Source of the DNA: Microcaldota archaeon
Lineage (GTDB): Archaea > Micrarchaeota > Micrarchaeia > Micrarchaeales > CABMGC01
Direction of reading: 5' to 3'
Length of the DNA stretch: 33,046 nucleotides
Assembly: GCA_021789155.1 (NCBI GenBank)
Contig: JAJYJW010000009.1
Location: 1-33,046, forward strand
The notes below the pieces were generated by a model. That model was not told the origin of the DNA. It saw nothing but the letters and a program-made list of their open reading frames with translations, and made no database searches. The position numbers were made by a program, and so were the translations under genes. This document shows, one piece after another, positions 1-18,430 of the stretch. Position 1 is the first letter of the stretch, and each line of letters begins with the position of its first letter.

Positions 1-914
1 CTCTTAGGCATTGAACTTGCGAGAGCATTGTGGTAAACCTCATACATGCTCTTGAAGGCACCTTCCATGACCGGCTGCAATTTCAATGTAGCGTTGTTCT
101 CCGCTTCCTTTATCGCAGTCGAGAATGCCTTGAATCTTGCCTCGAGCGTATCTATTGCCTCTGCCCTGTTAGCCAATTCGGCTTCAGGCACTGGATCAAC
201 AGGATTCGCTATCCACGCCCTTCTAAGGATAAGAACTTCATCTATCTTGTCCTTAACCTGCTGTGAATTGACGAATTTTGACAGCATCTCCTGATTGCTG
301 AAAGACGCAGCATATTCCTTTATCTCATCGGACTTGCTCAAACCTACCGCTTTGGTGAATGCTTCCTTCAATTCACCATCATTAATAGCATTCAAGACTG
401 GCTTGTATACAGAATCATTGGTATTGTAATCTGCAAGGACAGATGCCAAGAATGAATAAGTAGAATCGGTTCTTGCCTTGTCCAATTCCAGGTTTATCTG
501 AGTAATTGCGCTTCTTGTCTGCTCATCCAGCAACAGAGTAGAAACGCTGCCTATCGTCTTGTTTTCGAAAGGTATCCCCAATGCCTCGAACGCCTTCCCT
601 GCAGAAGACGACAGTTTTTCAAGGGATTCGTTTATGGATTTAAGAACGGCATTGCTTCCAGAGGTATTAGTGACTATCGTTGCTCCTACCTGCACCAATC
701 CCACATATTCAGGAAGAATCTTCTCTATTTCCACTGCTGCCTTCAGTTTGTTCTTGCCTTCTGATGCAGAATAGAATATCTCCATGTTTTGCGTCATTTT
801 AGCTGCAAGATCCACGTATTCCTTATAATCCACGATTCCGCTTCCGCTTTTAGATATTGACGCTATGTCCAAACCATATGCTATCTTTTCTTCAAACTTA
901 AAGCTAGAACTCAT
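1..914 (-). CDS. Hypothetical helical protein, C-terminus outside window
   Basis: The minus-strand frame opens at an ATG complementary to 912-914 and stays open to the window edge, giving about 304 residues without a stop. I do not recognise a family. The sequence is rich in Ala, Glu, Lys, Ser and Leu, has almost no cysteine, and shows no signal peptide or membrane segment. It looks like a soluble, mostly alpha-helical protein, possibly with coiled-coil parts (residues near the cut end are heptad-like with many Glu/Ala). The start is supported by a purine-rich GGGTGGGG stretch just upstream (about 919-926) and a TATA-like TTTTTAAAT at about 951-959. The gene runs away from the basic mini-gene and shares the 915-1232 intergenic region with it. 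Being a structural or scaffold protein is only a guess from composition. Confidence 0.75.
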   Translation of the reverse strand, partial: MSSSFKFEEKIAYGLDIASISKSGSGIVDYKEYVDLAAKMTQNMEIFYSASEGKNKLKAAVEIEKILPEYVGLVQVGATIVTNTSGSNAVLKSINESLEKLSSSAGKAFEALGIPFENKTIGSVSTLLLDEQTRSAITQINLELDKARTDSTYSFLASVLADYNTNDSVYKPVLNAINDGELKEAFTKAVGLSKSDEIKEYAASFSNQEMLSKFVNSQQVKDKIDEVLILRRAWIANPVDPVPEAELANRAEAIDTLEARFKAFSTAIKEAENNATLKLQPVMEGAFKSMYEVYHNALASSMPK

Positions 915-960: not shown

Positions 961-1192
961 TTACTGTTTTGGCATAATTTATTTGAAAAGAACAGATATG
1001 TTTATTATGAAATTTGCTTGTTTTGCTGAGAACAGCGCTGAAAAAGAAGGATTTGAATCGTCAGCAGGTAAATTTTGTATTCGGAGATTCGTCGAATCTA
1101 TACAATAATAAAATCTTTTTATTACTTTTCAAAAGCATTTATAATAGTTCGTACGTAGTATACACAAGACTTAAATATCTTATTAAATCAAC
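961..1192. other. A+T-rich intergenic region with a short perfect palindrome
   Basis: This stretch separates two divergent transcripts. A 61-codon plus-strand frame (1014-1199) is present, but its A+T-rich, Asn/Tyr/Leu-rich composition and lack of a ribosome-binding site argue against coding. At 1085-1099 the sequence AGATTCG-T-CGAATCT forms a perfect 7-base inverted repeat around one base, which could be an operator or small hairpin. Nothing else is recognised. Confidence 0.4.
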
Positions 1193-1200
1193 TTTATAAA
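1193..1200 (+). promoter_or_regulatory. TATA box for the basic mini-gene
   Basis: TTTATAAA lies 33 bases before the ATG at 1233, predicting a transcript start near 1223 and a leader of about 10 bases holding GGGAA. Just upstream of the ATG the 12-base unit CCAAAAGGGAAT occurs twice in tandem (1205-1216 and 1217-1228), so the GGGAA ribosome-binding motif is duplicated. Confidence 0.55.
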
Positions 1201-1232
1201 TGTTCCAAAAGGGAATCCAAAAGGGAATAAAT

Positions 1233-1289
1233 ATGCCAAAGAAGACAACAAGAAAGGCAAAGAAGACAACAAAGAGATCAAAGAGATAA
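1233..1289 (+). CDS. 18-residue Lys/Arg-rich microprotein
   Basis: The frame ATG...TAA encodes MPKKTTRKAKKTTKRSKR. Ten of 18 residues are Lys or Arg, five are Thr or Ser, and there are no acidic or large hydrophobic residues. The peptide has a seven-residue internal repeat (KKTTRKA / KKTTKRS) matched by an exact 15-base DNA repeat at 1237-1251 and 1258-1272. It has its own TATA box, a GGGAA site 5 bases before the ATG, and an intrinsic-type terminator right after the stop, so it looks like a complete monocistronic unit. Composition resembles histone-tail or H1-like nucleic-acid-binding peptides; function as an abundant DNA or RNA neutralising peptide is inference. The alternative is that the transcript is a small noncoding RNA and the reading frame incidental. 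Confidence 0.55.
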   Translation: MPKKTTRKAKKTTKRSKR

Positions 1290-1335
1290 GGGTAACACCC
1301 ATTTTTTCTTTTTCTTTTTTTCTTTCCTTTCTTTT
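1290..1335 (+). terminator. Hairpin plus long U-tract terminator after the mini-gene
   Basis: GGGT-AAC-ACCC (1290-1300) can form a 4-bp stem. It starts one base after the TAA stop and is followed by a long run of T interrupted by single C residues to about 1335. Archaeal transcription terminates on such U-tracts. The tract is oriented for the plus strand only. Confidence 0.7.
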
Positions 1336-1360: not shown

Positions 1361-2527
1361 TCAAACGAAAATGCTTGCGAACACTTTCGCAACATTCACC
1401 AAATTTTCTATTATAACGTATTCATTGGGTTGGTGTGCTATGTCTTCCTCTATGCTCCAGACAGCAGATGAATAACCTGCTTTCCTGAGATACGCTGCGA
1501 CCGTGCCGCCGCCAATGCCGACGAATTTCGGCTCCATACTCAATTCGCTTTTTATAGAGTTTGCAAGAACCCTTATTATCTCCGAATCTGTGCTCGTCGG
1601 TGGTGCTGCCTGTTCCTCCTGCACTTTCTCCAGATCGATCCTTACTTTCTTGTACTTCGAGCTTATCGCAAGTATGTCGTTATATATCTCATCAAGGCTG
1701 TAATCCGGGATAACCCTGAAATCGAAATAGAATACATCTTTTCCCGGAATTATGTTCGTACTATCAACGTTCTTCTCGTGTTTCGTCATTTCGAACGTTG
1801 AGCCTGAAGGGAATGCATTGCTCTTTGCCTTGTACTTTTTGTGCAACGCCTTATCCACTTCTATCATGAATTTTGCAGCATTCCTCAATGAATTAACTCC
1901 TTTCTTCGGAGTGCTTGCGTGCACCTGTTTGCCATTCACAGTAACCTTCAGCCACATTATGCTCTTTTCAGCTATTTCTATTTCGTTGCCTTTCTTCGAG
2001 CCCCAATCAGGCACTATGAACATGTCGCTCTTGCCGAAAATGTTTTCTTTGAGGAGTTTCTGTATGCCGTACTTGCTGCCCACTTCTTCGTCAGCTGCGA
2101 ATATCACGCCTACATTGTACTTTATCTGCTTGCCCATAAGGTATCGCAAGGTGTACAACGCTGCTATCGTTCCCTCTCCGTTGTCTTGAGTGCCTCTTCC
2201 GAAAATCTTCCCGTCTTTTACTACTGCGTTGAAAGGATCAGTGCTCCATGCTGCGATGTCACCTTCTGAAACTGTATCGATGTGCGCTAGTATCCATATC
2301 GTTCTCTCTTTGTTGCCGTATTTCACCGCAAGGTTCGAACGCTTTGCGCCTGCTTCGTCAGTGTAATCGAAACGCTTTGGAGAAAGATCCCATGACTTGA
2401 GCATGTTCTCTATGAAATCAGCGCGTTTTCCTTCGCCTTCTCCTCCAGACACAGGACTAATTGACTTTATTGAGACGAGTTCGCACATCGTCTTTACCAT
2501 GTCATTCCTGAATTCCTCTATACCCAT
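1361..2527 (-). CDS. M20-family metallopeptidase / ArgE-DapE-like deacylase
   Basis: A cytosolic zinc hydrolase of the M20 family, which removes amino-acid or acyl groups from peptides or N-acyl amino acids; the exact substrate cannot be read from sequence. With the start at 2527 (MGIEEFRNDM) the protein is 388 residues, normal for the family. Visible metal-site motifs are AHIDTV (His82, Asp84), GRGTQDNGEG (bridging Asp115), AADEEVG (catalytic Glu147 and ligand Glu148) and AHQPNE near the C-terminus (His365). The middle holds the dimerisation-domain segment with GKQVHASTP. An upstream in-frame extension to 2587 would add a non-conserved, poorly coded stretch, and ATG at 2537-2539 is another candidate. 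It is divergent from the large LRR gene. DapE versus peptidase assignment is unresolved. Confidence 0.88.
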   Translation of the reverse strand: MGIEEFRNDMVKTMCELVSIKSISPVSGGEGEGKRADFIENMLKSWDLSPKRFDYTDEAGAKRSNLAVKYGNKERTIWILAHIDTVSEGDIAAWSTDPFNAVVKDGKIFGRGTQDNGEGTIAALYTLRYLMGKQIKYNVGVIFAADEEVGSKYGIQKLLKENIFGKSDMFIVPDWGSKKGNEIEIAEKSIMWLKVTVNGKQVHASTPKKGVNSLRNAAKFMIEVDKALHKKYKAKSNAFPSGSTFEMTKHEKNVDSTNIIPGKDVFYFDFRVIPDYSLDEIYNDILAISSKYKKVRIDLEKVQEEQAAPPTSTDSEIIRVLANSIKSELSMEPKFVGIGGGTVAAYLRKAGYSSAVWSIEEDIAHQPNEYVIIENLVNVAKVFASIFV

Positions 2528-17125: not shown

Positions 17126-18430
17126 ATGGACTTAGGCGAAGGTATAAGGAAGGCAGTAGCAACGCTTACCGGAGCCACCATAATAGACACGAAAGCGATA
17201 AAAGAGTTCAACAAGGAGCTGCAAAAAGCTCTTTTAAGCGCAGACGTGGAAGTAAAGCTAGTTTTCGAACTTACGAAAAAGATAGAAACAGCTGCGCTTA
17301 GCGCGAACCTTCCTGCTGGAGTGACCGCTAGAGACTACGTCATTAACCTGCTCTATGAAGAGCTGGTAAAACTCATGGGCAATGATTATTCGCCTGAGAT
17401 ATCGCCTAAAAGAATACTACTTCTCGGGTTATACGGCTCCGGAAAAACCACAACTGCCGCGAAGCTGGCTAAATTCTACCAAGACCGTGGAATGAGTGCC
17501 GGAGTGGTATGTTGCGACGTGACGCGCCCTGCAGCATATGAGCAATTGGAAACGCTTGCCAAGCAGGCCGGAATCGCATTCTTCGGAATAAAGAACGGAC
17601 ATGACGCTGTGAAGATAGCAAAGGAAGGGCTTGCCGCATTAAAGGACAGAAAAGTCATAGTGTTTGATTCAAGCGGAAGAAGCGGACTCGATGCCGAACT
17701 CATGAAGGAACTGAAGGGGATAGCTGAAGCGGTGAAGCCCGATGAGAAGGCGCTTGTCATAAGCGCAGACATAGGCCAGGTTGCAGGAAAACAGGCCAGC
17801 GAATTCAGCAAAGAAGTGGGAATCAACAGCGTGATAGTTACAAAGCTTGACGGCTCTGGAAAAGCAGGAGGAGCACTTAGCGCGGTAAGCAAATCCGGCG
17901 CGAAGCTCACTTTCACCGGAAGCGGGGAAAAGCTCAATACGCTTGACAGCTACAGCTCAAAGAGATTCGTAGCAAGATTGCTCGGGATGCCGGATCTTGA
18001 AGGGTTGATCGATGCAGTTAACAAAGGTATGCAAGAAGCGAACGTCAAACCGGAAAACATGCAGAACATGGAGCTGAATTTCGATACTTTCTATACGCAG
18101 CTTAAGACAATGTCCGGTGCCGGACCATTGAAGAACATACTCGGCATGATGGGCATGTCAAACGTCCCGAAGGAAGCGATAGAGCAGAGCGAGGAGAAGC
18201 TGAAGAACTACAAGGTGATTATAAGCTCCATGACAAAGCAAGAGAGGAACAACGACTCTCTGCTTAAGCAGAAAGGGAGAATAGAAAGGATAGCAAAGGG
18301 AAGCGGAAGAACGGAAAAGGACGTCAAGGATCTGATAAGCGAGTTCGCGAAAATGAAGAAGCTGATGAACAGCATGAAGAACAATCGCGACATTCTGAAA
18401 AGATTCAAGTCAATGGGTTTGGGAGTTTGA
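17126..18430 (+). CDS. srp54: Signal recognition particle protein SRP54 (Ffh)
   Basis: The GTPase of the signal recognition particle, which binds signal sequences and SRP RNA and docks on FtsY. 434 residues: N helical bundle (1-85), G domain (about 90-300), and Met-rich M domain (about 315-434) ending MKNNRDILKRF. Motifs: Walker A GLYGSGKTT (101-109), DVTRPAAYEQL, TKLDGSGKAGGA (239-250), and the NG interface LLGMPDLEGLID. The G3 motif, usually DTAGR, reads DSSGR (181-185), and DGTAKGGG reads DGSGKAGG. Both changes are conservative in size but uncommon. A TATA-like TTTTATAATTTAA (17098-17110) lies about 25 bases before ATG 17126, suggesting a leaderless mRNA. tRNA-Gly follows. Confidence 0.94.
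   Translation: MDLGEGIRKAVATLTGATIIDTKAIKEFNKELQKALLSADVEVKLVFELTKKIETAALSANLPAGVTARDYVINLLYEELVKLMGNDYSPEISPKRILLLGLYGSGKTTTAAKLAKFYQDRGMSAGVVCCDVTRPAAYEQLETLAKQAGIAFFGIKNGHDAVKIAKEGLAALKDRKVIVFDSSGRSGLDAELMKELKGIAEAVKPDEKALVISADIGQVAGKQASEFSKEVGINSVIVTKLDGSGKAGGALSAVSKSGAKLTFTGSGEKLNTLDSYSSKRFVARLLGMPDLEGLIDAVNKGMQEANVKPENMQNMELNFDTFYTQLKTMSGAGPLKNILGMMGMSNVPKEAIEQSEEKLKNYKVIISSMTKQERNNDSLLKQKGRIERIAKGSGRTEKDVKDLISEFAKMKKLMNSMKNNRDILKRFKSMGLGV

Follow-up and report, generated by a model that had tools for sequence, protein, structure and literature searches.

The window, a stretch of 33,046 nucleotides that makes up contig C15 in a Micrarchaeota genome of 796 kb (G000), contains what is almost certainly a real gene for a microprotein of only 18 residues, MPKKTTRKAKKTTKRSKR. 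Judged by sequence and chromosomal position, orthologs of the gene occur in two families belonging to a single Micrarchaeota order, in about 80 genomes. What evolution keeps is a content of about 60% Lys/Arg, a MAKK start and a K/R-R end, while length and residue order drift. The composition suggests, with roughly balanced confidence, that the microprotein is a disordered, non-specific nucleic-acid binder, similar to a stand-alone tail of histone H1. The features of the locus are listed in Table 1.

Table 1. Features of the microgene locus and its neighbours (window positions).
Feature	Position	Strand	Remarks
Likely TATA/BRE element CTTAAATATC	1170..1179	+	Homology with the TTTAAATA-type box of orthologs
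Probable transcription-start region TTTATAAATG	1193..1202	+	"TATA box" region of the sequence-only reading; contains in-frame ATG 1200-1202
12-nt tandem duplication in the 5' leader, AAAAGGGAATCC/AAAAGGGAATAA	1207-1218 / 1219-1230	+	Second copy is the ribosome-binding region
Microprotein CDS	1233..1289	+	MPKKTTRKAKKTTKRSKR, 18 aa; frame kept by orthologs in 80 further genomes
Probable archaeal T-run terminator	1290..1335	+	Hairpin GGGTAACACCC (1290-1300), then T-rich tract (1301-1335)
M20-family peptidase gene	1364..2527	-	PF01546, E=3e-29; convergent neighbour, downstream of the microgene in the window
SRP54 (signal recognition particle 54 kDa)	17126..18430	+	PF00448, E=8e-58; usual convergent neighbour in relatives, here 16 kb off

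In the window sequence, the frame runs from the ATG at 1233 to the TAA at 1287-1289 and encodes seven Lys, three Arg and no acidic residue, which confirms the ten Lys/Arg and the lack of acidic residues described in an earlier, sequence-only reading of this DNA. That reading also proposed a seven-codon repeat exact at the DNA level; however, the exact DNA repeat covers only 15 nt (CAAAGAAGACAACAA). A second in-frame ATG at 1200, which it overlooked, would give a product of 29 aa. A leaderless start there is possible in the window's genome, but an in-frame upstream ATG extension is found in only 21 of 60 members, and the conserved start is MAKK. The N-terminal extension was rejected. Upstream of the microgene, a leftward open frame (window 3-914, minus strand) encodes 304 aa and is cut by the contig end; it has no Pfam match. 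Two large leucine-rich repeat proteins are encoded towards the two ends of the contig (2670-5663 and 31276-32673).

Considered by itself, the frame stands out only slightly: when its own 51 internal bases are shuffled with dinucleotides preserved, 1% of the shuffles are open, acid-free and hold at least ten Lys/Arg, which could be taken in favour of a chance open frame in purine-rich DNA. ORFs of this kind are nevertheless rare. Under a strict composition filter (ORFs of 12-33 aa with a Lys/Arg share of 50% or more and with D, E, F, Y, W, I, L, C, N and Q all excluded), MPKKTTRKAKKTTKRSKR is the sole pass in the 33-kb window, and 713 kb of other Micrarchaeota DNA gave two matches, one of them an ortholog (L008:9004). 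The chance explanation is refuted by conservation, as about 80 orthologs keep the frame at one syntenic place, and its probability is negligible.

A DNA search of 79 genomes from the window's family picked out G001 (71% match, E 8e-13), in which the matching gene lies beside SRP54 on the opposite strand and encodes MAKKVAKKKATKKAKKTTKKGKR. When the promoter and start of the G001 gene then served as the query, a number of further tiny ORFs came to light that also adjoin SRP54 on the opposite strand, including MAKKAKKSSAKKKKR, MAKKKGKKQRKR (12 aa), MAKAKKAKGKKAKKR and MAKKTVKKAAKKAVKKGKKSVKKSRR. The member catalogue was obtained by following this SRP54 synteny rather than the peptide sequence. 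Of the 66 genomes in family f1, to which the window belongs, 33 have a micro-ORF that converges on SRP54 from its 3' side, as do 47 of 67 in the sister family f2 of the same order, the latter including two forms of 61-65 aa. Outside the order, where the distribution was assessed by SRP54 synteny alone, none of the 13 genomes sampled elsewhere in the class has one at SRP54. Most of these micro-ORFs lie 125-360 nt from SRP54, and three lie at 740-950 nt.

A profile built from 29 members and searched against the phylum gave zero matches; since even the known members escaped, this null is uninformative. A scan with a degenerate DNA pattern was too noisy for counting members; of the listed matches in G000, the window gene alone gives a Lys-rich peptide in frame.

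In the window's genome, SRP54 is followed by a tRNA-Gly and no micro-ORF is found there; the microgene instead adjoins the M20 peptidase. The ortholog at L008:9004, MAKKRKSHKRKRKR, sits between SRP54 and a DRG-type GTPase, in the gene order M20 - DRG GTPase - microgene - SRP54. The window locus is therefore probably what a rearrangement has left of this neighbourhood. Several genera do not have the microgene at SRP54. The sampled genomes are mostly metagenome-assembled, and a microgene missing at SRP54 may still lie elsewhere in the genome. Only for G015, a complete single-contig genome that was scanned whole, does absence hold genome-wide, as it contains no Lys-rich member with a ribosome site. 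Together, the absence at SRP54 in several genera and the lack of a member in G015 indicate that the microgene is dispensable over evolutionary time.

The composition of the family was calculated from 80 members (70 distinct), using the residues after Met: 48% K, 16% A, 12.5% S, 11% R, 5% T and 3% G. The shared design is an M-A-K-K start, a body of Lys/Arg with Ala/Ser/Thr/Gly, and a K-R end; among the first 60 members, 52 start with MA and 56 end in R, mostly as KR. Members are almost without I, L, V, F and W, and residues of acidic, aromatic or large hydrophobic type are all but absent. The only Asp or Glu among the 80 is one Glu in the 65-aa form of G257, and the short forms among the first 60 members have none. 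Lengths range from 12 to 37 aa, and the shortest members hold eight or nine Lys/Arg in 12 residues. The exception is genus g51, where the SRP54-convergent gene (L260 in G257, L300 in G258) encodes an H1-tail-like protein of 61-65 aa (MTETKKKKSKVTKKAAKKVAKIVVKKATSMAKPKKAASKPKAKKAQKPASKTVAKKAKSSKKKSK), which suggests growth or shrinkage of one gene.

Members are only about 30-70% alike, with length changing freely. The alternative frames of their DNA contain stops and 6-27% Asp/Glu. Between close relatives, 46 codon differences are synonymous and 26 non-synonymous, where neutral change would give 25% synonymous (p ~7e-12, an optimistic value as some of the compared pairs share a member, although the direction is clear). 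Of the 26 replacements, 19 are conservative (exchanges K/R, S/T, A/S, A/T, S/P, G/A and G/S). The relatives thus keep the frame and show the synonymous excess of a protein-coding gene, and frame, composition and synonymous excess together show protein-level selection on composition and ends, not on a fixed sequence.

The signals around the frame were only partly those described before. Orthologs share a TTTAAATA-type box at about 39-57 nt before the ATG; with the range set to 36-66 nt, 66 of 79 members have one. In the window the corresponding element is CTTAAATATC, 63 nt from the ATG, or 51 nt after discounting a 12-nt duplication, similar to the spacing in G001 (50) and G024 (51). It is likely that this element at 1170-1179 is the operative box and that the TATA box previously placed at 1193-1200 (TTTATAAA) was misassigned. 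Its surrounding region, TTTATAAATG, is instead probably the transcription-start region, as it lies about 26 nt past CTTAAATATC. What had been read as a duplicated GGGAA ribosome-binding unit is a 12-nt tandem duplication private to the window's genome. Relatives carry one copy, as in G010 (AAAAGGGAATAAA-ATG) and G007 (AAAAGGGATAAA-ATG), and of the two copies in the window only the second stands at ribosome-site distance. Across the family, ribosome sites resemble G-T-G-A and are most frequent at -9 to -6, with GTGA itself in 49 of 79 members.

Of the proposed hairpin-U-tract terminator, the T-tract stands and the hairpin does not. A T-run of at least five lies within 60 nt past the stop in 79 of 80 members, and T content in these 60 nt averages 56%, against 27% for the window. 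The GGGT-AAC-ACCC hairpin is weak (-4.4 kcal/mol, z -0.9) and specific to the window's genome, as none was seen past the stop codon in the relatives whose sequences were displayed. Archaea terminate transcription at T-runs, with which a weak private hairpin is compatible, and the 3' T-rich tract is a probable terminator of this type. The tidy set of signals first noted therefore gives way, in its TATA box, duplicated ribosome site and hairpin, to an upstream box, a GTGA site and a T-tract that are present in most members.

The claim of a self-contained gene for a basic microprotein, too short for gene finders, is upheld by orthologs that keep frame, composition, start and end motifs, synteny and a synonymous excess. 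Relatives that keep the DNA fold and lose the frame had been named as the pattern that would speak against it, and the opposite was found. A small regulatory RNA or terminator element with an incidental ORF is highly improbable. The window transcript does fold better than its shuffles (z -3.2), owing to pairing between its A/G-rich frame and its T/C-rich tail, but the good fold is absent in G001 (z -0.9), no Rfam covariance model matches at the microgene (the sole Rfam match in the window is a tRNA), and what is conserved instead is frame, composition and synonymous bias. With a short Lys-rich ORF ahead of a terminator-like tract, the locus could also encode a leader peptide attenuating a downstream gene. 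However, the microgene faces a convergent gene in the window (M20 peptidase) as well as in relatives (SRP54), which leaves no same-strand downstream gene to attenuate, and this reading was rejected as having next to no probability.

A known ultrashort and strongly basic archaeal product is the ribosomal protein eL41/eS32 (PF05162), but it is not the microprotein. A direct query with eL41 from G018 identified the gene in 137 of 147 genomes of the order, the window's included (G000:C1:4207-4278, with PDB L41E as best match, E 0.027); the Pfam PF05162 null in G000 was thus false. The matches are mostly 75-100% identical, as expected from fixed rRNA contacts, and Micrarchaeota eL41 (MRWKWKKKRRKRMKRAQKRR type) often lies within several kb of SRP54. 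It contains Trp/Met, is conserved residue by residue and is encoded by a separate gene, whereas the microprotein shows neither a near-invariant sequence nor a fixed length (12-37 aa, 61-65 in g51, with low identity). Members of at least 20 aa have no match in Pfam or NCBIfam, including the histone fold (PF00808), in libraries that also miss a Micrarchaeota eL41.

The most plausible function, suggested by composition, is that of a histone-tail-like nucleic-acid binder. The monocistronic locus would produce an ultrashort disordered polycation; with 12-37 residues, 60% positive charge and almost no hydrophobics, folding is not expected. This polycation would neutralise and bundle the phosphate of DNA and/or RNA, working alongside existing histones; its target may be DNA, rRNA or another polyanion. 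What evolution retains is charge density with flexible spacers. Histone-fold genes are found in 146 of 147 genomes, leaving no obvious gap for the microprotein to fill, and the idea that it replaces missing histones was rejected on this count. Likeness to H1 tails is seen in KAKPKAKKAKPKRKR-type members and in the 61-65 aa version of g51 at the same place; this long form leans towards the nucleoid. However, the neighbourhood, with SRP54, the ribosome-associated DRG GTPase and often eL41, leans towards translation and counts against it.

Like the C-terminal tail of histone H1, the microprotein is a low-complexity mixture of Lys with Ala/Ser/Pro/Thr in which composition and not sequence is conserved, and members of genus g23 carry H1-like motifs such as KAKPKAKKAKPK. 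Protamines, the Arg-rich proteins of eukaryotic sperm chromatin, are also short polycations with a constraint on composition, and the microprotein resembles them in composition only. In bacteria, H1-like tails with KPAA repeats form the C-terminal domain of AlgP/PhaF (PMC9239181). The microprotein shares the acid-free, low-complexity, polycationic character of the H1-like and AlgP-like tails (one Glu in 80 members). It differs in being a stand-alone product of 12-37 aa with no folded domain, neither winged helix nor N-terminal helical, encoded in frame upstream; sequence homology to the H1, AlgP or PhaF tails is not demonstrable. Another small, basic, Lys-rich and lineage-specific archaeal protein is the candidate nucleoid protein WP_019177984.1 of Methanomassiliicoccales, a proposed DNA coat (PMC7613761). 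At 74 aa it is much longer, is backed by abundance and nucleoid data, and has no demonstrated relation to the microprotein.

The microprotein could instead be a lineage-specific ribosome- or SRP-associated component that threads into rRNA or 7S RNA, similar to eL41/eS32 or bacterial bTHX. Its size and charge are like those of the smallest ribosomal proteins, its place next to SRP54 is fixed, with the DRG GTPase and often eL41 within some kilobases, and the promoter, ribosome site and T-tract look strong. Still, we consider this rather unlikely, as eL41 is already present separately in the same genomes and is conserved by residue while the microprotein is not. In addition, the length varies threefold among the short forms and the microgene is lost or moved in whole genera. 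Non-specific binding is favoured over a defined ribosomal position because of this difference from eL41. Very unlikely is a secreted or host-directed cationic peptide of antimicrobial type, made by an episymbiont. Micrarchaeota do live with hosts (PMC8975820) and the microprotein is short and cationic, but it has no leader sequence and no amphipathic hydrophobic face, given almost no I/L/V/F/W. No export or modification neighbours were seen, and the neighbourhood is constant and of housekeeping character.

It can be speculated, with more doubt than confidence, that the charge pattern and the chromosomal place are the sole conserved traits and that the microprotein of these reduced-genome archaea acts as a "peptide polyamine", tuning the electrostatics of nucleoid or ribosome, at or near the lower size limit of conserved prokaryotic proteins. 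Such a protein would go unseen by homology search, since selection acts on composition. If the microprotein binds nucleic acid as proposed, it would be among the smallest known chromatin- or ribosome-associated proteins. Proteins of 12-20 residues can evidently persist across an archaeal order under composition-only selection. The family lies under the length cut-off of gene callers and beyond homology tools, and synteny alone revealed its members. Such peptides are destroyed by trypsin, which makes their absence from tryptic proteomes uninformative. Synteny combined with composition and start and stop signals is thus a recipe for similar genes in poorly annotated DPANN archaea. In open-licence papers we found no report of such a peptide family; some members may be listed, with the family unrecognised, in catalogues whose ORF calls start at 30 nt (PMC11364881).

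Finally, L108 (G066:C2:18858-18931), L119 (G029:C14:21022) and L123 (G028:C32:1968) are short ORFs of strongly acidic composition (MAKKEETKEEDEEEEEDDEDFDEDMDDEEDW...) that share the promoter type and the MAKK start. They form a putative acidic counterpart to the microprotein family within the order.
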